Below are positions 6,242 to 61,672 of a stretch of DNA of 64,000 nucleotides, one piece after another (position 1 is the first letter of the stretch; each line of letters starts with the position of its first letter). The DNA is from Akkermansia muciniphila (lineage in GTDB: Bacteria; Verrucomicrobiota; Verrucomicrobiia; Limisphaerales; BJHT01): NCBI GenBank assembly GCA_945861535.1, contig CAMAUZ010000018.1:1-64000 (forward strand), given 5' to 3'. The notes beneath the pieces are model-generated. The model was not told where the DNA came from and did not search any database. It saw nothing but the letters and a program-made list of their open reading frames with translations. Both the position numbers and the translations under genes were made by a program.

Positions 6242-6280
6242 ACACGAGTGAGGTGATGGCCGCCTGTGGGAGTGGCGCTG

Positions 6281-6423
6281 GCGTGGGTCAGGCTTCCAGC
6301 CTGACGGTTCGGGCGGCATCCGTGCCGCCCGTTCCCCGGGCGGGCGTGCGGTGCGGCGGAACCGGGAACACGGGGCAGGGATGCCCCGTGAACCGGCACG
6401 CAAGGATGCCTGCCCCACCCCGA
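6281..6423. repeat. Four-hairpin palindromic element, copy 1
   Basis: About 142 bp made of four small hairpins in a row: GTCAGGCTTCCAGCCTGAC, GGGCGGCATCCGTGCCGCCC, GGGGCAGGGATGCCCC and a last imperfect one ending in TGCCTGCCCCACCCC. The loops are TCC-type in the first two and GGA-type in the last two, so the whole unit is itself roughly symmetric. A homologous copy in the opposite orientation lies at 15655-15795. It fills most of the spacer between hisC and the first FkbM gene. Confidence 0.75.
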
Positions 6424-6482
6424 CGGCGCGCCGGGGAAAAGAATTATTTTCAAAGGGGCGGTGCGGTCCTAGCGTCGCGCGC

Positions 6483-7262: not shown

Positions 7263-8398
7263 AACTCGTTCATATCATCGGGCGCACGGCGGGGGGCGGG
7301 GGGCGGACCATCGGGCTGAATTGCATCGCGCCGTGCGCGGGGGAGTTTGACACGGTGGCGTTGACGGGGCGCGCGGGGGACCTGGCGGAATTGCTGGAGC
7401 AGCGCGGGGTACGGACGGAGCGGCTGGAGTTGGATGCACCGGCGCGGAGTATTTTTTCGGTGCTGAAAATCGCGCGGGCGTTGAAACGCGAGCGGCCGGA
7501 TGTGGTGGTGTTGCACGGGCAGCCGGCGGGGTTCACGGGCGGACTGGCGGTGCGGTGGGCAGGCATCAAGGCGGTGGTTTATTTTCCATGGTTCCCGAGT
7601 TTTTACACGGACTGGGATGCGCTGCGCGTGCTGCGGAATCACTGGGTCGAGCGGGTGAGCTGCGGCGTGGCGCGGCGGGTCGTGTGTGCGGGAGCGGCGA
7701 CGCGGTATCAGTATTTGCTGCGGCGACTGGCGACGGAGGAGCAGTTGGTGACGGTGCCGGCGGGGATCGCGCCGCGGCCGGCGGCGGTGGTGGATCGCGG
7801 GGCGGCGCGGGCGCGGCTGGGGCTGGAGGTGGGGCGTCCGTGGGTGGTGTGCGTGGGGCGGCTGGCGGATCAGAAGCGGGTGGACTGGCTGGTGCGCGCG
7901 TGGCGCGAGGTGGAGCGCGTGAACGCGGAGGCGGGGCTGGCGATCGTGGGCGATGGCGCGGAGCGCGGGGCGTTGGAGGCGCTGGCGCGCGAGCTGGGTT
8001 TGCGGCGGTGCCGGTTTCTCGGGTATCGGCCGGACGGGGCGGAATTTTTTGCGGCGGCGGATTTGGCGGTGGTGACGACGTTGTTCGAGGCCCCGGGTTT
8101 TACGGTGCTGGAGGCAATGGCGGGGGGTTGTCCGGTGGTGGCGACGGAAGCGGATGGCGTGGCGGAGGCGGTGCGGGATTCGGGCGCGGGGCGGCTGGTG
8201 CCGGTGGCGAATCCGACGGCGCTGGCGGGGGCGCTGGTGGAGTTGTTGGGGAACGCGGATTTGCGGCGGGAGCTGGGCGCGGCGGGGCGGAAGTTTGTGG
8301 CGGAGCGGCATGGGTTGGCCGAGGTGGTGCAGCGGCAGTTTGCGCTGTATCGGGAGGTGGCGGCGGGCGGCGGGGCGGGAAATTTGAACCACGGATAA
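7259..8398 (+). CDS. GT4 family glycosyltransferase
   Basis: A 379-residue GT-B fold glycosyltransferase of family GT4. It adds a sugar from a nucleotide donor to a growing surface glycan at the inner face of the membrane. The C-terminal donor domain shows VCVGRLADQKRVDWL (about 197-211), GDGAERGALE (231-240), and the E-x7-E pair E277/E285 (FEAPGFTVLE). The GTG start overlaps the previous stop by four bases. The last residues, NLNHG, and the TAA stop are encoded by the left arm of the repeat at 8388-8510, so the 3' end seems to have been shaped by repeat insertion. Acceptor and donor cannot be told. Confidence 0.87.
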   Translation: MKLVHIIGRTAGGGGRTIGLNCIAPCAGEFDTVALTGRAGDLAELLEQRGVRTERLELDAPARSIFSVLKIARALKRERPDVVVLHGQPAGFTGGLAVRWAGIKAVVYFPWFPSFYTDWDALRVLRNHWVERVSCGVARRVVCAGAATRYQYLLRRLATEEQLVTVPAGIAPRPAAVVDRGAARARLGLEVGRPWVVCVGRLADQKRVDWLVRAWREVERVNAEAGLAIVGDGAERGALEALARELGLRRCRFLGYRPDGAEFFAAADLAVVTTLFEAPGFTVLEAMAGGCPVVATEADGVAEAVRDSGAGRLVPVANPTALAGALVELLGNADLRRELGAAGRKFVAERHGLAEVVQRQFALYREVAAGGGAGNLNHG

Positions 8399-8510
8399 AC
8401 ACGGATAAACACGGATGAAAACCGGGGGCGGTTGGTTCACTCATTGCCTGAGCGGAGGCTTCGCAGAGGTGCTGTTCCCATCCGTGTCGATCCGTGTTCA
8501 TCCGTGGTTA
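8388..8510. repeat. Inverted repeat with tandem ACACGGAT units (family D)
   Basis: The left arm (8388-8420) has three consecutive ACGGAT units spaced by AAACAC. The right arm (8476-8510) has the same units reversed, ATCCGTGTCGATCCGTGTTC, ending TCCGTGGTT. The core is about 55 bp. The left arm starts inside the end of the glycosyltransferase gene and supplies its stop codon. The design, short tandem units as facing arms, is shared with other repeats in this window. Confidence 0.8.
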
Positions 8511-8526
8511 AGCAGCGTTTTCTAGG

Positions 8527-9900
8527 ATGAAATTTTCCTGGTCACTGGCGGGGGCGGCGGTCGCGCGTTTCTTGCGCTCGGCGGTGCTGCTGACGTATGG
8601 CGTGATGGCGCTGCGGCTGGCGGGTTTTGTCATCGTGCTGCCGCTGGCGCTGCGGACGTTGCCGCCGGAGGACGTGGGGTTTTGGTATGTGCTGACGACG
8701 TTGGGCGGGCTGTTCAGTTTGGCGGAGGTGGCGTTCTCGCCGGTGATTTCGCGGCGGGCGAGTTATCATCATGCCGGGGTGGAGACGATTCCAGATTTGG
8801 GTTTGCCGGTGCCGGCGGCGGTGGCGGCGGGGCCGGATTTGGCGGGGCTGGCGGGGTTGGCGCAGATGGCGGGGCGCTTGTATTTGCGAATGGCTGTGGG
8901 CTTCGGTGGCTTGCTGGCGGTGACGGGCTGGGTGTGGCTGGAGTGGAAGCATCCGGCGACGTTCGCGCGGCCGGAGAATCGGGCGGCGTTTTTGTTGTTC
9001 GTGGCGGCGAACATCGCGGGGGGCGCGGGACAGTTCTGGCCGGCGTTGTTGTTCGGGGTGAACCGCGTTCATGCGTATCAGCGCGTATTCATCGGGGGAT
9101 TGGTGGCGAACTATGTCGTCGCGTTGACGGGCTTGTTGCTGGGCTGGGGGATTGTGGCGCTGGTGCTGGGGCAGGTGGTGCTGGGGATTTGGCCGCGCTG
9201 GCTGGCGGGACGGATGTTTCGCGCGGAGTTCGCGATCGGCGCGGTGACGGTGCCGCGGGTGACGCGGTGGCATGATGTTTGGCCGGCGGCGTGGCGGACG
9301 GGGTTGGCGAATTTCGGGTCATTTTTTTCGCTGCAAGGCACGACGCTGGTGTGCGCGCAGGTGCTGGGGCTGGCGGTGACGGCGAGTTTTTCGCTGAGCT
9401 TGCAACTGGCAATCACGTTGCACAGCGTGGCGGCGGCATGGCTGTTTGTGAAAAATCCCGAGATCAGCGCGCGGCTGGCGCGGGGCGAATTGGCGCCGGC
9501 GCGCGAGCTGGTGCGGCGGCGGATGGCGCTGGTGCTGGCGAGTTATGCGGTGGTGGCGGCGGGCGCGTGGTGGGGCGCGGAGCCGCTGGTGCGCGCGCTG
9601 GGATCGAAGACGCCGGTGCTGGGGGCGGGGGCGTTCGCGCTGATGTTGCTGGTGGTGGGCTGCGATCTTTTTCACGGAATGCACAACACGGTGTTGCAGA
9701 CCTCGAACCGGCTGCCGCATTTGTGGGCGCTGGTGGCGGGCGGGGTGCTGACGACGGTCTTGGGCGTGGTGCTGGCGGCGAAGTGGGGCGTGCCGGGATT
9801 GATCGCTGCGCCGGTGCTGGCGCAGTTGCCGTTCACGTATTGGCGGACGGTGCGGGAGTGCTGGCGGGTGTTGCGCGGGGGCGTGGGGGCGGCAGCGTGA
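8527..9900 (+). CDS. Wzx-like polysaccharide flippase / oligosaccharide translocase
   Basis: A 457-residue polytopic membrane protein with about 12 hydrophobic segments, starting at about residues 18-40 (VLLTYGVMALRLAGFVIVLP). Length, spacing and charge pattern match the Wzx/MATE-type polysaccharide transporters, which flip lipid-linked oligosaccharides across the inner membrane. There is no single diagnostic residue motif, so the call rests on topology and on its place between glycosyltransferase and methyltransferase genes. It starts at an ATG six bases past a TTTTC tract, right after the repeat at 8388-8510. O-antigen ligase or Wzy polymerase are less likely because no large periplasmic loop is seen. 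Confidence 0.72.
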   Translation: MKFSWSLAGAAVARFLRSAVLLTYGVMALRLAGFVIVLPLALRTLPPEDVGFWYVLTTLGGLFSLAEVAFSPVISRRASYHHAGVETIPDLGLPVPAAVAAGPDLAGLAGLAQMAGRLYLRMAVGFGGLLAVTGWVWLEWKHPATFARPENRAAFLLFVAANIAGGAGQFWPALLFGVNRVHAYQRVFIGGLVANYVVALTGLLLGWGIVALVLGQVVLGIWPRWLAGRMFRAEFAIGAVTVPRVTRWHDVWPAAWRTGLANFGSFFSLQGTTLVCAQVLGLAVTASFSLSLQLAITLHSVAAAWLFVKNPEISARLARGELAPARELVRRRMALVLASYAVVAAGAWWGAEPLVRALGSKTPVLGAGAFALMLLVVGCDLFHGMHNTVLQTSNRLPHLWALVAGGVLTTVLGVVLAAKWGVPGLIAAPVLAQLPFTYWRTVRECWRVLRGGVGAAA

Positions 9901-9919
9901 CGACGAGCCGTGAAACGGG

Positions 9920-9950
9920 ATGGCCGCAAAGAACGCAAAGAGACGCAAAA
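9920..9950. repeat. Tandem CGCAAAGA units (family E, one clear arm)
   Basis: Three CGCAAAG-type units follow each other (GGCCGCAAAGAACGCAAAGA, then GACGCAAAAAG) just after the flippase gene. A degenerate facing partner may lie near 10003-10030 (AACGCTTTTTCC, GGGCGTTTTC) but I would not insist on it. The tract sits in the 170-bp spacer before the next methyltransferase. Confidence 0.5.
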
Positions 9951-10070
9951 AGGGGCCGACGGGGCGGATTTGCGGGGAGGAATGGATTGCGCGCATCTGC
10001 GGGAAACGCTTTTTCCTCTGGGCGTTTTCTGGTGGGCGGGGCGGCGGATTTCTGAACTCAGATTGACAAC

Positions 10071-10814
10071 GTGCTGAAGGAATTTTTGAAGCGGACGGTG
10101 CGGCTGGCAGAGAGCCGGATGATCTGGCGGCAGCGCCGGGTGAAGTTTGGCGACGGCGAGTTGCGGCTGTTGCGGTCGCGGTTTTGGGATGACACGGAGC
10201 AGAAGATTTTCGAGGCGGAGATTCTGCCATATTTCCGGGCGATGGGCGACGGCGTGGCGGTGCCGGAGGTGATCGTGGATGCGGGCGCGGCGACGGGGCA
10301 TTTTGCGCTGGCGGCGACGGCGCGGTGGCCGGGGGTGCGGGTGGTGTGTTTCGAGCCGTCGGCGCGGCAGCGGGTGATGCTGGGGCGCAACGCGCTGTTG
10401 AATGGCGTGGCGGCGCGGATTCAGGTGGAGCCGCTGGCGCTGTGGAATTCGCGGGGGTTTCTGCGGTTTCGCACGCACGGGGCGATCAGTTGTCTGGAGG
10501 TGGTGAGTTCGTTGCCGCGGCATCTACCGTTCGAGGAGACGGTGCCGGTGGAGCCGCTGGATGCGTGGGTGGCGCGCACGGGATTGACGCGGCTGGATTG
10601 GATCAAGATGGACATCGAGGGCGCGGAGATCGAGGCGCTCGCGGGGGCGCGGGAGACGTTGCGGCGATGGCGTCCGGGCTTGCTGGTGCAGGCGTATCAT
10701 GTGCGCGACGGGGTGCGGACGTTCGAGGCGTGTCGGCGGTGGCTGGAGGGCGAGGGGTATCGGTGCGAGGAGTCGGGCGCGGGGAGCGGATTGCTGGTGG
10801 CGCGCGCGGGGTGA
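10071..10814 (+). CDS. FkbM family methyltransferase
   Basis: A 247-residue SAM-dependent methyltransferase. It shows VIVDAGAATGHFALA (SAM loop, about residues 67-81), VVCFEPSA (acidic strand end) and IKMDIEGAEIEAL, the FkbM signature that binds the cofactor and positions the catalytic site. The start is a GTG; no better upstream start exists in frame. It lies on the same strand as the preceding flippase, but 170 bp away across a repeat, so it may be a separate unit. Its likely role is O-methylation of a sugar in the surface glycan made by this region. Confidence 0.83.
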   Translation: MLKEFLKRTVRLAESRMIWRQRRVKFGDGELRLLRSRFWDDTEQKIFEAEILPYFRAMGDGVAVPEVIVDAGAATGHFALAATARWPGVRVVCFEPSARQRVMLGRNALLNGVAARIQVEPLALWNSRGFLRFRTHGAISCLEVVSSLPRHLPFEETVPVEPLDAWVARTGLTRLDWIKMDIEGAEIEALAGARETLRRWRPGLLVQAYHVRDGVRTFEACRRWLEGEGYRCEESGAGSGLLVARAG

Positions 10815-10826
10815 GGGGGCAGGGGG

Positions 10827-11482
10827 CAAAGCTCAAAGTTCAAAGCTCAAAGCTCAAGGGAAGCTCGCAAGAACCAGGGCGGCAACCCGCTCTGCTTGGG
10901 GGGATTCGCCGGGCGCGGTGCAACTTCGGAGGGGCGGTTGCGGATGGTGTGCCTGCTGGAAACCGCCACTGACTTTTACCGGCCCTTCTCTGAAGAAACA
11001 TCGATCTCTGGGTTAGGGCTGTCCCTCTAACCCAACTCACGTTGATCTGGCTATGGCCAATGGCACAACTGGCTGCCAAAATGTCGCTGCGTAGCGGTCG
11101 GTGGAGGCCAGGGCATAGCTCTGAAAACATCAGCACTTTCCCATCTTTTACCCCTCATCTTTTACCATCACTTCAGTGTCGTAAGCTGGATTAACTTTGT
11201 TGCCTGGGCCGCAAACTCGCCGAGCCGGTCCAGCAGCCCCGTGAGTTTGAAGAGTTCAGCCGATGACGGGTTGCTTGGCGATCACTCCGCGACGGCCGAC
11301 AGCGCGCATGCGGGTGCTGCCGGAGAAAGTTTTGGTAAAAGATGGGGGGTAAAAGATAACGACATTCGGGCGGGTGCGGTGCATGAGAGATGATTGGCGC
11401 CGGTCCGTGGTTTGAAACGATTCTGGTGGCGGTGGTGCTTGGAGTTTCCCTTGAGCTTTGAGCTTTGAACTTTGAGCTTTTT
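10827..11482. repeat. Inverted repeat with AAAGCTC heptad arms (family A, copy 1)
   Basis: The left arm (10827-10866) is a run of four 7-bp units (AAAGCTC, AAAGTTC, AAAGCTC, AAAGCTC) closing with AAGGGAAG. The right arm (11443-11482) is the exact mirror: GGAGTTTCCCTTGAGC followed by three CTTTGARC units. The core is about 580 bp and contains a further inverted pair (11138-11360), a small hairpin GGGTTAG/CTAACCC at 11011-11034, and no intact gene. Other copies lie at 17180-17385, 31583-31735, 46781-46988 and 49525-49648, with a lone arm at 29853-29888. Confidence 0.85.
11138..11360. repeat. Nested inverted repeat with ATCTTTTACC units (family B)
   Basis: The left arm (11138-11168) has two CATCTTTTACC units; the right arm (11333-11360) has two GGTAAAAGAT units. 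The pair sits inside the larger heptad element. Its core, about 165 bp, contains on the minus strand a 37-codon open tail ending in SSAELFKLTG..IQLTTLK whose stop codon falls in the left arm. The tail has a helical, coding-like look but I cannot name it; it may be the remnant of a gene. Confidence 0.7.
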
Positions 11483-11532
11483 TTCAGGCTTCCCGCCGAG
11501 GTCCGACCCACGCCGCACTGTGGAGTAGCGGT

Positions 11533-12690
11533 TCAACCGGACGGGAGCGGGTCGCCGAGCAGGAGGGCGAGATAGTGCCGGAGGGCGACGGGTTCGGTGA
11601 AGGCGGGGTTGAGGGGGCAGGCGAACTGGGTGACGTCGGTGTGGGCGGCGAGGAGTTTTTGGGTGAGTGCGTTCGAGTCGGTCGGGGAAAATTGGGAGGC
11701 GGCGTGGGGGACGACTTCGGGGAGGCTGCTGGTGTTGCTGACGAGGATGGGGGTGCCGACGGCCATGGCTTCGGCGGGCGGGAGGCCGAAGCCTTCGTAG
11801 AGCGAGGGGTAGAGGAGCAGCTCGGCGGCGGCGTAGAGGCCGGGCATGTCGGCTTCGGCGACGCGGCCGATGGAGACAATTTGTCCTCGGGGCAGACCCG
11901 CTTCGGCGAGGGCGGCGGGAAGGTCGCAGAGCGTCGGGTGCTGGCGCGTGGGGAGCGTGCCGGCGAGGACGAGGGGCGGGAGCGGGCGTTGGGCGTGGGC
12001 GTGGGCGGCGGCGTAGGCGCGGACGAGGAAGGGGACGTTTTTGCGGATGTCGTAGCCACCGACGTAGAGCCAGAAGCGCGCGGGGAGCTGGTGTTGGGCG
12101 CGAACGCGGTCGCGCTGGGGGCGCGCGAGTTTGGGCGTGGCGTCGCGGGGGACCCAGGGGTAGAGGCGGCGGATTTTTCCAGCGGGAATTTGGGCGAGGG
12201 TGGCGAGGTCGTTTTGCGAGCAGGTGGAGTCGGTGAGGACGAGGTGTCCGCCAGCGGCGTAGCGTTCGGTGGCGCGGGCGAGCCAGCGGCGGAGGCCGTG
12301 GCTGCCGGTGTAAATGGGGAAGCGGCGGTAGAGGCAGTCGTGCAGGGTGACGACGGTGCGGGCCGGCCGCCACGGACTCCAGATCGGGGCGGGGGAATGA
12401 AAGAGCGCGTGCGGGAATTGGCGCGCGGCGGCGCGGGCGACGAGGATTCCCCACCACGCGGCGGCGAGCAGGGGATGGCGCGAGGGCGGGCGGCCGGGGA
12501 CGGGAACGCAGATTTCGGCGGGGAGAAGCGCGCGGGCTTCGGCGGCATCAGCGGGGAGGAGGACGCGAAACGGCGGGGCGTCGGGCGCGCGCAGCAGGGC
12601 GTGGATGAGGCGCAGGGTGTAGGTGCCGACGCCAACGTGCGGGTGCAGCAGGGGGAGTCCGCTGATCACGAGGCGTGGCGCTGAGTTCAT
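11533..12690 (-). CDS. GT4 family glycosyltransferase
   Basis: A 385-residue GT-B glycosyltransferase. The acceptor domain has a glycine-rich start (HVGVGTYTLRL, about residues 18-28). The donor domain shows YVGGYDIRKNVPFLVRAY (about 207-224) and the E-x7-E site in SLYEGFGLPPAEAMAVGTP with both glutamates. It is closest in look to mannosyl/rhamnosyl-type enzymes such as WbaZ/MtfB, an inference from motif wording only. It runs against its neighbours, ending near the heptad repeat. It shares its subfamily with the gene at 13996-15126, so the two may be old paralogues. It probably adds one sugar of the surface glycan. Confidence 0.86.
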   Translation of the reverse strand: MNSAPRLVISGLPLLHPHVGVGTYTLRLIHALLRAPDAPPFRVLLPADAAEARALLPAEICVPVPGRPPSRHPLLAAAWWGILVARAAARQFPHALFHSPAPIWSPWRPARTVVTLHDCLYRRFPIYTGSHGLRRWLARATERYAAGGHLVLTDSTCSQNDLATLAQIPAGKIRRLYPWVPRDATPKLARPQRDRVRAQHQLPARFWLYVGGYDIRKNVPFLVRAYAAAHAHAQRPLPPLVLAGTLPTRQHPTLCDLPAALAEAGLPRGQIVSIGRVAEADMPGLYAAAELLLYPSLYEGFGLPPAEAMAVGTPILVSNTSSLPEVVPHAASQFSPTDSNALTQKLLAAHTDVTQFACPLNPAFTEPVALRHYLALLLGDPLPSG

Positions 12691-12756
12691 GGCGGGAGTG
12701 TGCCGGGGGATCGGGGCAGGGTGAAGGAGGAAGCGGGGGAAGGGGTGTGGTGGAGA

Positions 12757-12868
12757 TTTTGGCAGGGGAATTTAGGGCAAAGGAATAGGGGCAAAGGAAT
12801 GGGGGCAGGGGAGGCGGCTCGGAAGTTCCATTCTTTTGCCTCCATTCCTTTGCCCTCAATTCCCTAGC
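12757..12868. repeat. Inverted repeat with GGGGCAAAGGAAT units (family F)
   Basis: The left arm (12757-12811) carries GGGCAAAGGAATAGGGGCAA and further units of about 14 bp. The right arm (12835-12868) reads TTTTGCCTCCATTCCTTTGC with flanking matches. The core is only about 23 bp. It fills the spacer between two divergent genes and would extrude a long hairpin. A single-arm relative lies at 4539-4572. Confidence 0.78.
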
Positions 12869-12906
12869 CATGTCTCGGGGAACCGATTGAGCGGTCACGC
12901 GCTCCG

Positions 12907-13806
12907 ATGTGCTTTGAGATTGCGACGTGGGGGTGTTGCTTGGAATCTGCGGCCCGATTTTTCATGAGTGGAACGCATCCGATTGATTTTGTGCGGCGGG
13001 CTTGCGGGCATCGGTTTCCGCCGCTGGGCGGGCTGGTGAATCGTGTGTTTTTCAAGCTGATGCCGGCGGCGGTGGAGACGGAGTTGTTTCCGGGGATTCG
13101 CGCGCGGCTGGATTTGCGGGACCTGACGCAGCGGACGACGTACTGGCAGGGGGCGCGGTTCGAGTATCCGACGGCGGAAATTCTGGCGGAGTGGGGGCGC
13201 GCGGGGACGGCGGTGTTTTTCGACATCGGATCGAACTACGGTTTTTTCAGCTACTGGATGTTGTCGCAGGTGGCGGGGTTGCGGGTGGAGGCGTTCGAGC
13301 CGAATCCGGCGACGTATGAGCGGGTGCGCGGGATCATCGGGCGCAACGGGCTGACGCGGATGCGGGCGTGGAATCTGGGGCTGAGCGATGCGCCGGGGCG
13401 GCTGATGTTGCACGCGGGCGTGGTGGATTCAGGGCACTCGACGTTTGGGGATCATCCCGAACTGGCGGGCGGGGCGAGGGGCGAGGTGGCGGTGACGACG
13501 TTTGATTTGTGGCGGCGCGAGGCGGGGTTGGCGCTGCCGGAGGTGCCGAGTTGGGTGGCGAAGATTGACGTGGAGGGTTTTGAATTGCGGGTGTTGCGGG
13601 GGATGCGCGAGGCGCTGGTGGCGCGGGCGTTCGCAGGGCTGATGGTGGAGATCAATGAGTTTACGCTGAAGTTGTGCGGGACGAGTCCGGCGGAGGTTTT
13701 CGCGCTGCTCGCGGAGGTGGGCTATGTGTCGTTGGCGAACACGCCGGCTGGGCGGCGGTGGCCGTTGGAGAAGACGGCGAATGCGTTTTTTGTGCCGCGT
13801 ACTTAA
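12907..13806 (+). CDS. FkbM family methyltransferase
   Basis: A methyltransferase of up to 299 residues, the third FkbM protein in this region. Motifs are FFDIGSNYGFFSYW (SAM loop, about residues 101-114), VEAFEPNP (acidic strand end) and AKIDVEGFELRVL (FkbM signature). The ATG at 12907 gives an N-terminus rich in Cys and Trp; an ATG at 12964 (residue 20) would be as good and I cannot decide between them. It lies alone on the plus strand between two minus-strand glycosyltransferases. It is presumed to modify a surface sugar. Confidence 0.82.
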   Translation: MCFEIATWGCCLESAARFFMSGTHPIDFVRRACGHRFPPLGGLVNRVFFKLMPAAVETELFPGIRARLDLRDLTQRTTYWQGARFEYPTAEILAEWGRAGTAVFFDIGSNYGFFSYWMLSQVAGLRVEAFEPNPATYERVRGIIGRNGLTRMRAWNLGLSDAPGRLMLHAGVVDSGHSTFGDHPELAGGARGEVAVTTFDLWRREAGLALPEVPSWVAKIDVEGFELRVLRGMREALVARAFAGLMVEINEFTLKLCGTSPAEVFALLAEVGYVSLANTPAGRRWPLEKTANAFFVPRT

Positions 13807-13836
13807 TCCGTCAGTTGCTGAACAAAGAAGAAGTCT

Positions 13837-13947
13837 TAACCACTAACCGGCACTAACTGGCACTAATAAGAAGGCCAGCCCGACGTTGCTCGGTGGGTGC
13901 GCTGGGATTGGTTTTTATTAGTGCCGGTTAGTGCCAGTTAGTGGTTT
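13837..13947. repeat. Inverted repeat with AGTGCCAGTT units (family C)
   Basis: The left arm (13837-13870) reads AACCACTAACCGGCACTAAC then TGGCACTAATAAG. The right arm (13914-13947) reads TTATTAGTGCCGGTTAGTGC then CAGTTAGTGGTTT. Units are 10 bp long, three per arm. The two arms carry the CCGG and CCAG variants in different order, so they were not made by simple copying of one arm. The core is about 43 bp. A lone arm of this family lies at 61643-61672. Confidence 0.83.
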
Positions 13948-13995
13948 CCACTCAGGCGTTCTGGGTGGTTGCAGAAGCCGGGATTGGCGGTCGGT

Positions 13996-15126
13996 TCAGA
14001 GCGTTTTCAGGACGGCTTCGATTTCGGTGGCGACGAGGGCGGCGCTTTTTTTCCAGGTGAAGCGGGCGGCTTGGGCGCGACCGCGGTCGCTGAGTTGGGC
14101 GCGAAGGGCGTCGTCGGTCCAGAGGTGGGTGAGGGCGGCGCGGAGGCTGGTGGGGTCGAAGGGGTCGAAGTAGAGGACGGCGTCGCCGCCGACTTCGGGG
14201 AGGCTGGTGGTGTTCGAGCAGGCGACGGGGAGGCCGGCGCGCATGGCTTCGACGACGGGGAGGCCGAAGCCCTCGGCGATGGAGGGTTGCACGTAGGCGA
14301 GGGCGTGGGCGTAGGCCCAGGCGAGTTCGGCGTTGGTGACGTGGCCGGGTTGGAGGATGTCGCGGGGCCGCGGGGCGCGCTGGAGGAGCGGCTGGATGAT
14401 GTCGCGTCCGTAGTCGGCGGGGCAGGGGCCGAGGAGGACGAGGAGCGGAAGGTCGGCGTGTTGGGCTTGGAGCGTGGACCAAACTTCGAGGAGGCGGCGT
14501 TGGTTTTTGTTTTCCGAAAAAGTGCCCGTGTAGAGGAAGAAGGGCTGGGTGATTTCGCGCGCCCATTCCGGAGCGACGGATGTCGGCGGGCCGAGGTCGG
14601 AGGTGCCGCAGGGGACGACGACGATGTTCCGGGCGTGGCGTGGGAAGACGGCGGCGAGCTGTTTCTGGCAGTAGGCGGAATCGGTGAAGACGCGGCGGGC
14701 GCGGCGGATGGCGAGCGAAGTGGCCCAGCGGTTGAGGTGGTAGCGCGCGCGCTGGCCGGAGGCGATCCAGGTCGAGCCGTGTTCGTAGAGATTGGAATCG
14801 AAAACGTTGACGACGAAGGGCGGTCCGCAGAGCGGCGGGAAGCTGGTGGTCGCGAAGCCGAGGTGGCACCCGGCGCGTCGCCACGCGGGACCGATCTGGA
14901 GGACGGCACGGGTGAAGAAACGGCGGCCGGGGAGAAGGATGGGACTGAACGATTCAGCGTGCGGCCAGAGGGGATTGTCGCGGCTCTCGGCGACGGGAAC
15001 CCATTGCCACGGAACGTCGAGGCGGAGGAGTTCAAGGGTCTGGTGAAAGACGTGGCGGGCCGTGCCGGGCGCGCGGTGGGCCTGGTTGGCGGGGGCGAGA
15101 TCGATGCCGACGCGCACGGGGGTCAT
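13996..15126 (-). CDS. GT4 family glycosyltransferase
   Basis: A 376-residue GT-B glycosyltransferase. I use the ATG at 15126 (MTPVRVGIDLAPAN...), because the upstream open frame runs through repeats. Motifs include a Gly/Ala-rich N-terminal loop, YTGTFSENKNQRRLLEVW (donor domain), and the E-x7-E site in IAEGFGLPVVEAMRAGLP. It resembles the mannosyltransferase-type group also seen at 11533-12690. It presumably acts in the same glycan pathway. Its 3' end is 48 bp from the inverted repeat at 13837-13947. Confidence 0.86.
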   Translation of the reverse strand: MTPVRVGIDLAPANQAHRAPGTARHVFHQTLELLRLDVPWQWVPVAESRDNPLWPHAESFSPILLPGRRFFTRAVLQIGPAWRRAGCHLGFATTSFPPLCGPPFVVNVFDSNLYEHGSTWIASGQRARYHLNRWATSLAIRRARRVFTDSAYCQKQLAAVFPRHARNIVVVPCGTSDLGPPTSVAPEWAREITQPFFLYTGTFSENKNQRRLLEVWSTLQAQHADLPLLVLLGPCPADYGRDIIQPLLQRAPRPRDILQPGHVTNAELAWAYAHALAYVQPSIAEGFGLPVVEAMRAGLPVACSNTTSLPEVGGDAVLYFDPFDPTSLRAALTHLWTDDALRAQLSDRGRAQAARFTWKKSAALVATEIEAVLKTL

Positions 15127-15390
15127 GGGGTGGTGGGCGCGGAGGATTGGGTTGGCACGGTCGGCGGAAATTTTTCTGGCGCGCTGGGCACGTTGACCGG
15201 GACCGGTTGCGGGTGAGTGCCTCGCGGAGCTGTCGGTGGGCGGATTTCCGGCGTGCCAGCGGCGGGACTGTTGGAGACGGAGCGGGGGCGAGTCGAGTGC
15301 AATTTTGGCGGGATCGAGCGTGGGAGCGCATCGCAGTTTCTTGCACGCCCTCTGTTTCCCATCCCCAGCCCAGCGGGCGAAAGACAATAG

Positions 15391-15631
15391 CCCAGCACTT
15401 AAGTGCCGGGTCCGCGGCGGTAGCGAACCCAGTCCCGGCAGGGACGAAAGAAACCGTGCGCCGTCCCGCCTCTATCGTCCCTGACGGGACTTTCCGGTTT
15501 CCCGACCGTACGCCCAGCACTGAAGTGCTGGGCTGTTTTCGGTCGTCCCTGCGGGACTGCGCCAACACGCACCGACCGTTGCAAGAAACTGAGCTGCGCC
15601 CCGATCGTGGGAGCGCAGCTCAGTTTCTTGC
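15391..15631. repeat. Cluster of palindromes in the spacer 15127-15855
   Basis: The 729-base spacer holds no supported gene. It begins with about 190 bases without clear structure, then a cluster of hairpins: CCCAGCACTTAAGTGCCGGG at 15391-15410, GTCCCGGCAGGGAC near 15434, GTCCCTGACGGGAC near 15477, and GCCCAGCACTGAAGTGCTGG at 15512-15531. A perfect 19-bp inverted repeat with arms GCAAGAAACTGAGCTGCGC (15581-15599) and its complement (15613-15631) closes the cluster. A diverged direct copy of the last arm lies at 15324-15344. The palindromes resemble those in the element at 4580-4896. Confidence 0.72.
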
Positions 15632-15654
15632 GCGCGGCATGGCGTCCGCGCCAG

Positions 15655-15795
15655 CCGGGTGGGGCAGGCATCCTTGCCTGCCAGATGGCGGGGCATCCCT
15701 GCCCCGTGTTCCCGGTTCCGCGGGGGTGCTCGGCCATGGAAATGGGCGGCAGGGATGCCGCCCGAACTGGCAGGCAAGGATGCCTGCCCCACCCC
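15655..15795. repeat. Four-hairpin palindromic element, copy 2
   Basis: About 141 bp, the reverse-oriented homologue of 6281-6423. Outer arms GGGGCAGGCATCCTTGCCTG and its complement are perfect over more than 20 bp. The inner hairpins are GGGGCATCCCTGCCCC and GGGCGGCAGGGATGCCGCCC. In copy 1 the outer hairpin has a different stem sequence (GTCAGGCT/AGCCTGAC) that still pairs, so the structure rather than the sequence is kept. It ends 60 bp before the LarA-like gene. The open frame of that gene reads through it. Confidence 0.78.
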
Positions 15796-15855
15796 GCCCG
15801 CGCGCCTTCCGCTTATCCGCTTCCGCGCGCTCCGGTGGGTCGCTACGGTCCGCGC

Positions 15856-17179: not shown

Positions 17180-17385
17180 GAAAGCTCAAAGCTCAAAGGC
17201 TAAAGCTCAAAGAAATTGCCAATTGCCAATCGCCAAAGGTCGATGGTCGATGCGGTGGGAAGGATTCTGGCCGTGGTATTGGCCCCGTCTGTGGGCGTTC
17301 GCGCGCAGGATTTCGCGGGACTGGGTTGGTCCTTGTTCCTTTGAACTTCCCTTGAGCTTTGGGCTTTGAGCTTTGAGCTTTTTCC
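17180..17385. repeat. Inverted repeat with AAAGCTC heptad arms (family A, copy 2)
   Basis: The left arm (17180-17213) is AAAGCTCAAAGCTCAAAGGC followed by another unit, without the AAGGGAAG cap. The right arm (17344-17385) reads AACTTCCCTTGAGCTTTGGG plus two CTTTGAG units. The core is about 130 bp with a CCTTGTTCCTTTG tract next to the right arm, as in other copies. The element fills the spacer before the DUF1648 gene. Confidence 0.82.
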
Positions 17386-19746: not shown

Positions 19747-19798
19747 AAGTGAGGGTGAGATTACACAGGGCCTAACGAATGGAAAGACTCCGCGCCCG

Positions 19799-19956
19799 CG
19801 TAGCGCAGACTTCCCAGTCTGCTGTATCGCGGGTTTCTAAACCCGCGGGCGGTCCGGCTGCCCACAACGCCTCGCCTTTCCGCACGCGCCCCGAACACAG
19901 CCGCGCCTGCCGATTTGGAAATCGGCGATACAGCAGGTTCTGAAACCCGCGCTACG
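19799..19956. repeat. Palindrome cluster with GTAGCGC outer arms
   Basis: The spacer between the GmrSD and DUF1501 genes (348 bases) holds two facing arms. The left arm (19799-19850) contains GCAGACTTCCCAGTCTGC and CGCGGGTTTCTAAACCCGCG. The right arm (19903-19956) contains GCCGATTTGGAAATCGGC and GCAGGTTCTGAAACCCGC. The outermost bases GTAGCGC and GCGCTAC pair. The hairpins have the same small loops (TCC, CT, GG) as the four-hairpin elements but different stems. I see no gene here. Confidence 0.75.
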
Positions 19957-20094
19957 GGGGCCGTACGCGGATGCGCCCCGGCCGGAGCGGGCCGTTCGGC
20001 TGCGGAGAGTTTCATCACGGCGCTGCCACGATTGAAGGGAGATCCTCCGGCGAGGGCGACGCGAGCATCGGGTTCGCGCTTACCGCCCCGCACT

Positions 20095-21654: not shown

Positions 21655-24551
21655 TCGAGATAGAGAAAGTTTTGGCTGGCGAGGAGGGATTGGCAGAGGT
21701 CGGTCCAGGCTTGGTGCTCGGGGTTTTTGGATTTGTTCGCGCGATGGAGGGCGGTTTGGGATTCGAGGAAGGCGAGGGCGGCGGTGTGTTCGTCGGCGCG
21801 CGGCGGGCGGGCGGCGGTGAGTTGGAAGGCGGTGCGGAGGCGGGCGACGGTTTCTTTACCGGCGAGTTCTTCCAGACGTTGCGCGAGGTCGGCGGCGCGG
21901 CGGATGGCGAAGTCGGAATTCAGCAGGCTCAGGGACTGGAGCGGCATGGTCGTCGCGGCGCGGCGCGTGCAGTTGAAGACAATCGAGGGCGCATCGAAGA
22001 CGGTGAGGAAGGTGGGCACCTGGCTGCGGCGTTGTTGCAGGAAGACGGAGCGGGCGCGGCCGTCGGGGCTGGTTTCCTCGACGATGGTTTCGCCGACGCC
22101 GTCGCGTTTGGTGGGGACGTAGGCGCCGCTGGATTTCGCGCCGAGCTGGCCGGCGGCGGCGAGCATTCCGTCGCGGATGGCTTCGGCGTCGAGACGGCGC
22201 AGGGGGAAACGCCAGAGCTTGAGATTGTCGGCGTCGCGGGCGAGGGCTTCAGCGCGCGGCGCGCTGGATTGCTGGAAGGCGGCGGAGGTGGCGAGGAGGC
22301 GGTGGATGGGTTTGAGCTGCCAGCCGTTGGCGACGAGTTCGGATGCGAGCCATTCGAGCAGCTCGGGATGCGATGGCGCGGCACCGCTGAGGCCGAAGTT
22401 GTCGGGCGTCTCGACGAGGCCGCGGCCGAAGTAATGCTGCCAGACGCGATTGACCGTGACGCGCGCGAGCAGGGCGGACTGCGGCGAGTTCGGCTCGGTG
22501 AGCCAGTTCGCCCATGCCAGGCGGCGTCCGGTGCCGCGTGTGGTGGTGGACGCGGGCGCGAGGAGCGTGTTGGTGCCGGCGTTGCTGAGGAAGGCGAAGG
22601 TCGCAGGCTCGATTTTTTCGCCGGGCGTCTGGTGATTGCCGCGGTCGAGCAGGCGCACGACGGGCGGTTCCTTGGCGAGGTCGCTCACCCACGCGATGCG
22701 GCCGGGCTTGGGTTGGCGACGTGTGGCGAGCTGTTTGGTGGCGTCGTCGAAGGCTTTGCGTTTCGCGGCGGATTGTTCGCGGAAGATTTTTTCGGCGGCG
22801 GCGAGTTTCTCGGAGGACGCGGCGGGTGAGCGCTCGATGCGGACGTTGTCCACAATGAAACTGCGGCCGCAGCAGTACTCGAACGCGAAGCCGCCGTCGG
22901 GCAGGTCGGCGGCGGCGAGTTTGAGCGGCGCGCCGTCGGGGACGTGGTCCACGAGATGTTCGAGCGCGAAATCGTCGTCGCCGCGGCGGGTGACGCGGAC
23001 GCCGTAATTGCGTCCGGCTTGGTAGGGTTCCTTGCCGAGCTGGCCGCGCGATTTGGAATCTTTGCCGGGATAATCCACCACCACGACCGCGCCGCCGGCG
23101 GGATTGCCGTCGAGGAGGATGTTGCCGCCGCGGACGGGGCCGTCGTGATTGAAATCTCGCGCGGCGATGAAGAACGCCACGCGCTCGGCGGGCTTGCCCT
23201 TGTCGTCGAGCTTCAGCGCCACGAGGTCAAACGTGGCCTCGATCCATTCTCCGGTGCGCGCGGGACGCCAGTGGAAGGACTGCGTCGTCGCGAGCCAGCG
23301 GTCGCCGTTTTGGCCGGACTCGATGATGCGCAAAGTGCCGTTGGTTTGGAGCGCGGCGGGTGCGGCGGGCGAGTCGAGTTTCACGGGCGGAGTGCCGCCG
23401 GGGAGATTGTCGCCGGGCGCGGTGGCGGACCAGCGGGCGGCGAGGGCATTAGTGCCGGAGAAATCATCGCTAAAGAGAAGCTCGCCCGCGGGCCGGTGGT
23501 CGCGCAGCCACGCGGCGAGATCGGCGCGGAGCCGCTTGGTTTCGTGGTCGAGAGAGTTTTCGAGTGCCTGCCAGCGTTCCATTTCGCCCGGCAGCGCGGC
23601 CTGGATGATGCGGTCTTTGGGCGTGATCCATTTTTCGATGTTGAAGGCGGGATAAAGCACGGCTTGGAGGCGGTAGTAATCGCGCTGCGTGACGGGCTCG
23701 AATTTGTGGTCGTGGCATTTGGCGCATTGGAGCGTGAGGCCGAGCAGACTGGAGCCGATGATCTGCATCGTGGCTTCGAGCGCGTAGTAGCGGTCGGTGC
23801 GGACTTCCTCGGGATTGCCGTCGCTCTCGGCGGTGCCGTCCTGGCCGTTGCGGAGAAAGTGGGTGGCCTCGAGGAGATCAATGATTTCGGGCGTGGCGGC
23901 GGTGCCGGGCGTCCACGCGGCGAGTTCGTCGCCGGCGAGCTGGGCGCGGACAAATTGATCGAACGGCAGGTCGCGATTCACGGCGCGAATCACCCAGTCG
24001 CGGTAGCGATAGGCGAGCGGACGGTCGGAGTCGGCGGAGAAGTAGCCGTTGGAATCGGCGTAGCCCGCGGCGTCGAGCCAGTGTTTTCCCCAGCGTTCGC
24101 CGAAGCGCGCCGAGGCGAGATAGCGGTCGGCCGCCCGCGCGATGGCGTGGGGCGAATCGTCGCGCGCGAAGGCTTCGATTTCCTCGGGCGTGGGCGGCAG
24201 GCCGGTGAGCGTGAAGGCGAGGCGGCGGAGGAGCGCGTCCTTTGGTGCGCGCGGCGAGAGCGAGAGTCCGTCGGCGGCGAGCGCGCGGGCGAGGAAGGCG
24301 TCGATGGGATGCGCGGACGGGGCAGGGGAGGTCGGTGGGGCGGGAATGGGCGGGCGTTGGAGTGGCTGGAAGGCCCAGTGTTTGCGGGCATTCGCGAGGG
24401 GTTTTGCGGAGGAGTCCGCCGCGCGGGTGGCGAGCGGGATGACGAGCATGGCGACCGAAAATGCGGCGAGCGAAAACACCCGCCGACTCCCCGCGTTCCG
24501 GAAAAGGCCGGAAACAAAGGCTGCTGCGCGCGCTGCATCAAAGGGCGTCAT
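21651..24551 (-). CDS. DUF1549 and DUF1553 domain protein (PSCyt2/PSD1 type)
   Basis: A 966-residue exported protein. I use the ATG at 24551, giving an N-terminal hydrophobic segment (about residues 28-45). DUF1549 (PSCyt2) spans about 80-300 and contains LTGLPPTPEEIEAF, ERWGKHWLDAAGYADS and a CAKCH motif (276-280) that could bind haem or metal. A central beta-rich region (about 380-590, with FSDDFSG and FIVDNVRI) resembles a lectin/LamG-like domain. DUF1553 (PSD1) follows, with LAWANWLTEPNSPQSALLAR and PDNFGLSGAAPSHPELLEWL. It lacks the N-terminal PSCyt1 domain found in longer relatives. Its stop overlaps the start of the DUF1501 gene. Confidence 0.9.
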   Translation of the reverse strand: MTPFDAARAAAFVSGLFRNAGSRRVFSLAAFSVAMLVIPLATRAADSSAKPLANARKHWAFQPLQRPPIPAPPTSPAPSAHPIDAFLARALAADGLSLSPRAPKDALLRRLAFTLTGLPPTPEEIEAFARDDSPHAIARAADRYLASARFGERWGKHWLDAAGYADSNGYFSADSDRPLAYRYRDWVIRAVNRDLPFDQFVRAQLAGDELAAWTPGTAATPEIIDLLEATHFLRNGQDGTAESDGNPEEVRTDRYYALEATMQIIGSSLLGLTLQCAKCHDHKFEPVTQRDYYRLQAVLYPAFNIEKWITPKDRIIQAALPGEMERWQALENSLDHETKRLRADLAAWLRDHRPAGELLFSDDFSGTNALAARWSATAPGDNLPGGTPPVKLDSPAAPAALQTNGTLRIIESGQNGDRWLATTQSFHWRPARTGEWIEATFDLVALKLDDKGKPAERVAFFIAARDFNHDGPVRGGNILLDGNPAGGAVVVVDYPGKDSKSRGQLGKEPYQAGRNYGVRVTRRGDDDFALEHLVDHVPDGAPLKLAAADLPDGGFAFEYCCGRSFIVDNVRIERSPAASSEKLAAAEKIFREQSAAKRKAFDDATKQLATRRQPKPGRIAWVSDLAKEPPVVRLLDRGNHQTPGEKIEPATFAFLSNAGTNTLLAPASTTTRGTGRRLAWANWLTEPNSPQSALLARVTVNRVWQHYFGRGLVETPDNFGLSGAAPSHPELLEWLASELVANGWQLKPIHRLLATSAAFQQSSAPRAEALARDADNLKLWRFPLRRLDAEAIRDGMLAAAGQLGAKSSGAYVPTKRDGVGETIVEETSPDGRARSVFLQQRRSQVPTFLTVFDAPSIVFNCTRRAATTMPLQSLSLLNSDFAIRRAADLAQRLEELAGKETVARLRTAFQLTAARPPRADEHTAALAFLESQTALHRANKSKNPEHQAWTDLCQSLLASQNFLYLE

Positions 24552-46717: not shown

Positions 46718-46780
46718 AGGCGAGTGGGCGGAGAGTAGCGAGGGAGGTGGGGGATTCAACGGGAAAACCCGGACTGGGAC

Positions 46781-46988
46781 AAAGCTCCAAGCGCAAAGTT
46801 CAAAGCTCAAGGGAAGCACCAAAGGCCAAGGACCATGGCGGTGCATCGCAGTTGCTTGCATCTTGGTTGGCCAATCGAAGCCGGTCTTTCTCACCCCAAA
46901 TCCTCTCCCGCGGGGAGGTGGAGCGGGTGGCGTTGGTGCTTGTACCGTTGGTCCTTCCCTTGAGCTTTGAGCTTTATGCTTGGAGCTT
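46781..46988. repeat. Inverted repeat with AAAGCTC heptad arms (family A, copy 4)
   Basis: Left arm 46781-46818 (AAAGCTCCAAGCGCAAAGTT then CAAAGCTCAAGGGAAG). Right arm 46954-46988 (CTTCCCTTGAGCTTTGAGCT then TTATGCTTGGAGC). The core, about 135 bp, again starts with CACCAAAGGCCAAGG and ends with a TTGGTGCTTGTACCGTTGGT tract. It fills the spacer (397 bases) between the divergent propeller and vapB genes. Confidence 0.82.
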
Positions 46989-49524: not shown

Positions 49525-49648
49525 GAAGCTCAAAGCTCAAGGGAAGCACCAAGGAACAAGCGGGTTTTGAGAGACACGGTGGGCGGGCGACGGATGGGGC
49601 TTGGCGCTTTGATCTTCCCTTGAGCTTTGAACTTTGAACTTTGAGCTT
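49525..49648. repeat. Inverted repeat with AAAGCTC heptad arms (family A, copy 5)
   Basis: Left arm 49525-49548 (GAAGCTCAAAGCTCAAGGGA). Right arm 49613-49648 (ATCTTCCCTTGAGCTTTGAA plus two further units). The core is about 64 bp and begins with AGCACCAAGGAACAAGCGGG, nearly the same as in the copy at 31583-31735. It sits between the divergent aldolase and esterase genes. Confidence 0.85.
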
Positions 49649-61642: not shown

Positions 61643-61672
61643 CATTAGTGCCAGTTAGTGCCAGTCAGTGGT
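61643..61672. repeat. Lone AGTGCCAGTT arm (family C)
   Basis: Three 10-bp units (ATTAGTGCCAGTTAGTGCCA then GTCAGTGGTT), the same as the right arm at 13914-13947. The left arm is not found upstream. It lies between the end of the TIGR04255 cassette and the FAD oxidoreductase gene. Confidence 0.75.

Follow-up and report, generated by a model that had tools for sequence, protein, structure and literature searches.

Many bacterial genomes contain recurrent short tandem words, for example CACAGAGGACACAGAGG, ACACGAAGGACACGAAG and CACGGATGAACACGGATG, for which, to our knowledge, there is no accepted explanation. Here, we analyzed a stretch of 64,000 nucleotides (the window) from Akkermansia muciniphila (GTDB lineage BJHT01; assembly GCA_945861535.1, contig CAMAUZ010000018.1, positions 1 to 64,000 of the forward strand), in which arrays of short tandem units face their own inverted copies around a core, and we propose that these arrays are the ends of small mobile elements related to a gene for a GxxExxY protein. 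Several known systems resemble them in part. Foldback elements (FB, Galileo) likewise have inverted ends that consist of short tandem units and enclose a core; they differ in being eukaryotic, in their long arms and in their DDE-type transposases. PD-(D/E)XK homing endonucleases are small selfish nuclease genes that spread by cutting and belong to the same superfamily as GxxExxY, and we know of none with dispersed miniature copies or with ends made of tandem units. Compared with miniature inverted-repeat transposable elements, the window elements do have gene-bearing relatives with the same ends, but the gene encodes a nuclease-type protein, for which the role of a transposase is putative.

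REPIN-RAYT systems, named after repetitive extragenic palindromic (REP) sequences and REP-associated tyrosine transposases (RAYT), are outlined in PMC3116915 as short inverted pairs in intergenic space. Each family has one partner gene with these sequences on its flanks, a genome has several families, and the spacer is less conserved than the ends. The elements studied here match that outline in having dispersed intergenic inverted pairs of a conserved end (276 matches for the family termed F5), a partner gene per family, several families per genome and, likewise, a spacer of lower conservation than the ends. They differ in that the partner is a PD-(D/E)XK-type GxxExxY protein (PF13366/TIGR04256) and not a Y1 HUH transposase, in that the arm is an array of 7–15-bp units and not a hairpin REP, and in that the F5 core lacks hairpin covariation. 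With regard to the REP hairpin with its GTAG/GTGG tag, families F1, F5 and F7 end in AACCAC...GTGGTT, but their arms consist of tandem units, and F3, F4 and F2 are without such ends. TIRtrons (TIRYT) contain a transposase gene between inverted repeats that also occur dispersed, the latter being a shared feature, but the enzyme is a tyrosine transposase and the passages describing them in PMC3733652 speak of no tandem arms. Two heptamer systems have also been described. The Coxiella intervening sequence (IVS) is reported as a selfish element of 428 nt that has terminal inverted repeats and in which tandem heptamers precede the S23p open reading frame (PMC4990558), and the TAACTGA direct repeats of Beggiatoaceae are characterized as a heptamer family, mostly unpaired, upstream of genes (PMC4679880).

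The original prediction had named four repeat families in the window. All four are present, a few bases off the positions it gave:

8387–8509: F1 element; unit ACACGGATAA (word ACACGGAT), period 10, 3 units per arm; arms 8387–8422 and 8474–8509; 51-bp core, gene-less (miniature form); outer ends AACCAC...GTGGTT
11143–11357: F3 element; unit CATCTTTTACCCCT (word ATCTTTTACC), period 14, 2 units; arms 11143–11173 and 11327–11357; 153-bp core
12760–12870: F4 element; unit GGGCAAAGGAATAG (word GGGGCAAAGGAAT), period 14, 2 to 3 units; arms 12760–12802 and 12828–12870; 25-bp core
13838–13946: F5 element; unit CACTAACCGG (word AGTGCCAGTT), period 10, 3 units; arms 13838–13872 and 13912–13946; 39-bp core; outer ends AACCAC...GTGGTT

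A single fixed-rule scan of the window recovered eight tandem-armed inverted pairs, namely these four and four elements of AAAGCTC heptamers (F2), compared with a mean of 0.23 and a maximum of 2 in 30 first-order simulations of the same length. The facing-array design ascribed to the four families was found in each of them; it extends beyond four families, since de novo scanning of 434 kb of the window's own genome (G000, 7.94 Mb) and 352 kb of a sister genome of the same genus (G001) revealed at least 10 unit words of such build. The additional words include ACACGAAAG, GCGCAAAGG, GACAGGAAAATGGAG, GACTGACGAATGGG, GGTTGAAG, TTAGTAA/TTAGTGA, AACGTTC and more. These data stem from a tolerant scan, used instead of an exact-match scan for facing arrays that gave just 8 and 3 elements. 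The F5 pattern CACTAACNGGCACTAA, with at most one mismatch, occurred 134 times in forward and 142 times in reverse orientation in the own genome, while the reversed pattern gave 0 and 1 matches. The F5 copies inspected were mostly facing pairs with near-identical arms and loosely similar cores, which were mostly 50–52 bp long (45 copies). Rfam gave no match in window positions 8000–14600, and an Rfam RNA was ruled out as the identity of the arrays.

The gene that belongs to such arms was recognized in family F7 (ACACGAA units). In three genera (G033, G087, G126), F7 arms spanning 437–491 bp enclose a single open reading frame of ~125 residues, which matches the GxxExxY family TIGR04256 (E 2e-42 to 5e-43) and the PD-(D/E)XK nuclease superfamily PF13366 (E about 1e-43 to 3e-43). 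The F7-bracketed cognates include L175, L191, L194, L209, L237 and L316 (L numbers denote loci), and no second gene was found within the 430–500-bp elements read. The window's own genome contains six PF13366 genes, all of which lie between facing arrays. L184 has a complete F5 pair on either side, L187 and L188 (both double-domain GxxExxY genes) are bracketed by F3 arrays, L183 lies between GCAAAG arrays, L186 between GGCAAAATGATGGG-type 14-mers and L185 between CAGATTCAGGGAGGC units. In the sister genome, arms enclosed five of seven PF13366 genes (E<=0.01), and an F3 pair lies to one side of L321. For a broader sample, 56 GxxExxY loci were collected, comprising the six own genes, the 30 best-scoring loci of a phylum search, which are not a random sample, and 20 from further down its list; three at contig ends were excluded. 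A facing inverted repeat surrounded the gene in 39 of the remaining 53 (E<=1e-3), a locus with gapped arms visible by eye (L220) being counted as a miss. Such a repeat was present at 0/20 control positions taken at a distance from the gene on contigs of these genomes, at 0/160 sliding positions and at 2/169 positions of the own genome.

Both F3 and F5 have cognate GxxExxY genes in the window's own genome. The F4 cognate is the double-domain gene L322 of the sister genome, with arms TGGCAAAGGAATGGAGGCAAAGGAATGGGG, and F1 cognates are present in three genera (L330 in G069, L341 in G030, L348 in G181), where the proteins form one clade with a DxK motif variant. At L330:1104–1490, the F1 arm runs into the start of the GxxExxY frame, and its translation would read PRMNTDGHRL.... 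Each of the four families therefore has a cognate GxxExxY gene within the same arms, in agreement with the idea, raised in the original prediction, of one mechanism with a shared partner family acting in trans. The opposite outcome it had named, families scattered over unrelated genomes without a partner gene in common, did not emerge: GxxExxY cognates exist for all four, and F7 co-occurs with PF13366, which was found in 40 of 43 F7-positive and in 29 of 102 F7-negative genomes (p=1.5e-13, uncorrected for lineage and genome size).

The length of the word goes with the type of protein. Words of 9–10 nucleotides (ACACGGATGA, CACTAACCGG, ACACGAAAG, CACAGAGGA) accompany single-domain proteins, and F1 and F5 belong to this group; words of 14–15 nucleotides (GGTAAAAGATGGGG, GGCAAAGGAATGGA) accompany double-domain proteins, as in F3 and F4. 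The double-domain subfamily (~265 residues) occurs in 23 of 288 genomes and includes L186–L188, the frame of L188 being interrupted by TGA. After nine loci at contig ends had been removed from a sample of 30, 19 of 21 double-domain loci were bracketed (16/18 without the window's own genome). By eye, 17 of these 19 carry words of one 14–15-mer class (GACAGAATCATT, GGTAAAAGATG, GGCAGAAATATGG, ACAGGACGATT), L289 and L307 fitting less clearly.

Across genomes, protein identity correlated with the sharing of 5-mers between arms (r=0.38; 37 loci, 648 pairs), and none of 5000 permutations reached this value. On a tree of 42 single-domain proteins, we counted 13 changes of word class versus a shuffle mean of 25.8 (0/200 as low), with classes that were defined by pattern after the arms had been seen and with some rows that had been fetched via their arms (F1 L330, L341 and L348; F7 L146 and L147; likewise L175). 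These comparisons suggest that the arm word tracks GxxExxY phylogeny. Word abundance points in the same direction. The words of the own-genome genes L183, L186, L187 and L188 had 7, 5, 7 and 6 matches in the sample of that genome versus 2, 0, 0 and 0 in that of the sister genome, and those of the sister-genome genes F4, L320, L323 and L319 had 7, 0, 1 and 4 versus 20, 4, 4 and 11. Reversed words gave 0 to 5 matches, with the highest values for L188 (5, own genome) and L187 (4, sister genome), so that the counts for these two words are the weakest; F5 counts in this comparison are inflated, because the F5-rich stretches had been picked for holding F5.

In an alignment of 14 diverse GxxExxY proteins, the residues G28, E33, Y36, D73, E83, K85, H94 and Q97 are invariant. 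We take them to be the PD-(D/E)XK set, with an H..Q motif that presumably resembles RecB/Cas4-like nucleases. Cleavage of their own arms by GxxExxY proteins is putative. A sequence search revealed no close solved structure, and a single-sequence fold of one GxxExxY protein (pLDDT 39.5) was not used. In the open-access literature, with supplementary files outside the search, two papers were found to contain the word GxxExxY, both in passing, and no paper was found that links it with repeats.

Comparison of related genomes provided information on mobility. Four of four congeners lack the L194 element of G033, and their copies of the two flanking genes overlap by ATGA. In G033, these two genes retain their start and stop, and AAAAATG occurs both before and after the element, which may be a duplication of ~7 bp. 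The site of L222 is occupied by a different miniature element in one congener; in a second congener, a truncated copy of the L222 gene remains together with the left arm. In Sphingomonas parapaucimobilis, fabD and fabG are separated by an element; the two genes adjoin in S. paeninsulae and Rhizobium indigoferae. The own and the sister genome, roughly 82–94% identical in aligned stretches, differ likewise. Present in the sister genome only are an F8 element (orthologous to window position 22322), the F4 element of one gap and a 400-bp F1 element; another F1 element is complete there and reduced to a single arm in the own genome. In other orthologous gaps, F5 plus F3 of the own genome stand opposite an F1-type nested element, F10 opposite F4, and F2 opposite another palindromic element. 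Sister-genome F1-type elements contain a nested palindromic module (GTGCGGTGACTTGTCACCGC...GGCGACTTGTCGCC plus inverse; L106:5224–6865, L140, L093:7753–8145). Unit number varies between orthologous copies. Some F5 copies are old and common to both relatives: in 13 orthologous F5 pairs, identity was 87.4% for arms, 62.7% for cores and 62.5% for flanks, the arm value being biased upward by the location of the pairs via their arms.

F7 has a much broader distribution than F5: it was present in 43 of 145 genomes sampled from the phylum. F1 (ACACGGAT units) was present in 54 of 288 genomes. A genome search of the sister gave 187 F5 matches. Among 84,980 species, the exact F5 27-mer was detected in one named genome, a metagenome-assembled Verrucomicrobiota genome (BJHT01, LBMAG_Verrucomicrobia_hypo.bin2; 23 stretches), in a listing that may omit near relatives of the window.

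GxxExxY genes also occur in eight plasmid records, and arms bracket those of Bacteroides finegoldii, Gemmatirosa kalamazoonensis, Bernardetia and S. parapaucimobilis. The arm-bearing query from Gemmatirosa matched at least 26 places on its replicon, and its word had 5 forward and 5 reverse matches in 50 kb (control 0). On the plasmids of Fusobacteria (L266) and Prevotella (L265), direct and not inverted repeats flank the gene by eye. One viral contig (L285), detected with a DNA pattern scan, has a GxxExxY gene, and CACAAAG arms were recognized there by eye; a second DNA pattern and three protein scans of viral contigs revealed no relative, and one query against 50,697 phage records found none.

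The heptamer elements form a further class. In the window's own genome, an F12 element (L126:15536–15978) encloses a gene for a four-helix-bundle protein (TIGR02436/PF05635), that is, the 23S-rRNA intervening-sequence protein. Six plasmid records (L355–L360) were chosen, before their flanks were seen, from 22 with a four-helix-bundle relative. All six (Anabaena, Chlorohelix, Pseudanabaena, Bernardetia, Treponema, Planktothrix) have facing heptamer-type arrays around this gene, and the Bernardetia arms consist of TTAGTGA, the F11 word. On the cyanobacterial plasmids L355, L357 and L360, the element adjoins cas1/cas2, cas1, or DISARM/BREX genes. A four-helix-bundle frame within the arms thus marks the heptamer class and not F1, F3, F4 or F5, whose cognate frame is GxxExxY. 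By this comparison, a third, heptamer class (F2, F11, F12) appears to pair with the four-helix-bundle protein, and the latter is the likely partner of the AAAGCTC elements of the window, for which F2's own cognate gene was not found. As far as it is described in PMC4990558, the Coxiella IVS has the build of the heptamer class; it differs from the remaining elements in its S23p (four-helix-bundle) protein, which is not GxxExxY, and in its location in 23S rRNA, and it corresponds to F2, F11 and F12 and not to F1, F3, F4 or F5. The heptamer elements and the single arms of the window are:

10828–11480: F2 element; arms 10828–10866 and 11442–11480; F3 element nested within
17181–17381: F2 element; a different palindromic element in the orthologous gap of the sister genome
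31583–31733: F2 element; arms facing
46780–46988: F2 element; arms facing, degenerate
49526–49648: F2 element; arms facing
61645–61670: lone F5 arm (half element), no facing partner
9925–9949: lone CGCAAAGA-type arm (F6-like half array)

Nesting as at 10828–11480 was also seen for F7 within F2 (L098:16786–17150). Window positions 6272–6438, 15327–15610, 15614–15800 and 19793–19980 have many sister-genome matches of 75–91% identity and are dispersed repeats.

We conclude, with a probability of roughly 0.78, that the facing arrays are the ends of small mobile elements with a GxxExxY gene and a lineage-specific word, and that the gene-less miniatures are moved in trans. This conclusion is based on the gene within the arms, the family-specific pairing, the dispersed facing copies, presence and absence in relatives, the empty site in congeners and the intact catalytic residues of 14 proteins. 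A full element would comprise one GxxExxY gene between a unit array and its inverted copy, with about 430–500 bp for single-domain and 850–950 bp for double-domain proteins. Most likely, the arms would serve as arrays of nuclease-binding sites, spaced by one helical turn in the 10-bp families, on which the GxxExxY protein of the family would assemble. It would cut both its own element and new targets in intergenic DNA, and host repair would copy the element into the latter. The window elements would be non-autonomous miniatures, which lost the gene or were built from ends alone and are moved in trans by the family nuclease. Such a logic would be like that of REPIN-RAYT or of homing, with an unrelated enzyme.

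Several observations weigh against this conclusion. No cognate gene of F1 or F2 was found in the window's own genome. At the thresholds used, 14 of the 53 single-domain loci and 2 of the 21 double-domain loci were without arms, as were four of the eight plasmid loci (Persicobacter, Treponema, Prevotella, Fusobacteria), and about five of the 39 bracketed loci (L199, L202, L207, L234, L235) have an inverted repeat without visible tandem units. Clean empty sites number two, one with four relatives and one between distant species. The AAAAATG duplication is a single case (L194), and the other element differences between the own and the sister genome showed no fixed target duplication. Hairpin covariation was not seen in 45 F5 cores (5.0 for own versus 5.15 for mixed copies), and a conserved hairpin through the F5 core was rejected on these values. 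Transposition, cutting and binding were not observed; mobility is read from the comparison of sequences. Finally, the conservation of F5 arms at orthologous places also fits a function for the host.

The last point leads to the alternative that the cell itself makes use of the arrays, as conserved binding sites or as ends of transcripts, with GxxExxY as a regulator or processing nuclease and spread through the genome as a secondary effect. We consider it unlikely. The higher likeness of F5 arms than of cores or flanks (in pairs selected with a bias), the position of the elements in intergenic gaps and the clustering of core lengths near 50–52 bp would agree with it, but the gene moves within its arms and is missing from the orthologous site of all four congeners, families replace one another at orthologous gaps, and each genome has several unrelated words. 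Less probable still is that GxxExxY is cargo and that a different enzyme mobilizes whatever has ends of this kind. Movement by GxxExxY was not observed, and four-helix-bundle genes, for whose S23p-type proteins we know of no catalytic function, occupy the same design; however, the class of a word goes with the phylogeny of GxxExxY and its abundance with the resident gene, and the 430–500-bp elements read hold no second gene.

The REP-type transposase considered in the original prediction turned out not to be the partner. The genome has nine Y1_Tnp genes, and REPIN-RAYT shares the logic of miniature inverted pairs with a single-copy partner, but none of the nine Y1 loci has facing tandem arms and several have flanking hairpin REP sequences instead; Y1 (IS200-like) transposases were therefore rejected, and it is very improbable that the arrays are REP-type elements moved by them. 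Long inverted, often hairpin-like flanking repeats, as in ordinary RAYT–REP sets, were present at six of the nine loci (L001–L004, L007, L009). A reverse transcriptase was not found inside the elements examined, a genome-wide search for one not having been made. Replication slippage or template switching, by which facing arrays would arise without a dedicated enzyme, is just as improbable: it accounts for the different unit numbers of orthologous copies, but not for the presence of a gene between the arrays, for the cognate pairing, for the dispersal of copies of a single word or for the empty sites. Given the inserted gene, the empty sites and the pairing of words with proteins, template switching is not needed as the producing mechanism, although it may be behind the gain and loss of single units.

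Because the Y1 partner was tested and not there, we place the GxxExxY-associated elements outside REPIN-RAYT. We rate them as new in kind because there is neither a Y1 partner nor a linking paper in the open-access literature, the catalytic role of GxxExxY being a putative one. On balance, we favor a wider view, with less confidence than the mobility of the elements itself: GxxExxY nucleases would form an undescribed cross-phylum class of elements that spread themselves and gene-less swarms via unit arrays, the word co-evolving with the ends; the 23S-rRNA IVS would be one insertion of a parallel heptamer/four-helix-bundle class; and the two together would explain a large share of the unexplained 7–15-bp intergenic tandem repeats. 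If this is true, many unrelated-looking short repeats across bacteria would have one testable cause, and the 23S-rRNA intervening sequences would be joined to a wider class of elements. The tie to repeats would give a function to GxxExxY, a family with almost no literature, and its natural series of matched pairs of protein and DNA word could serve to derive a recognition code.

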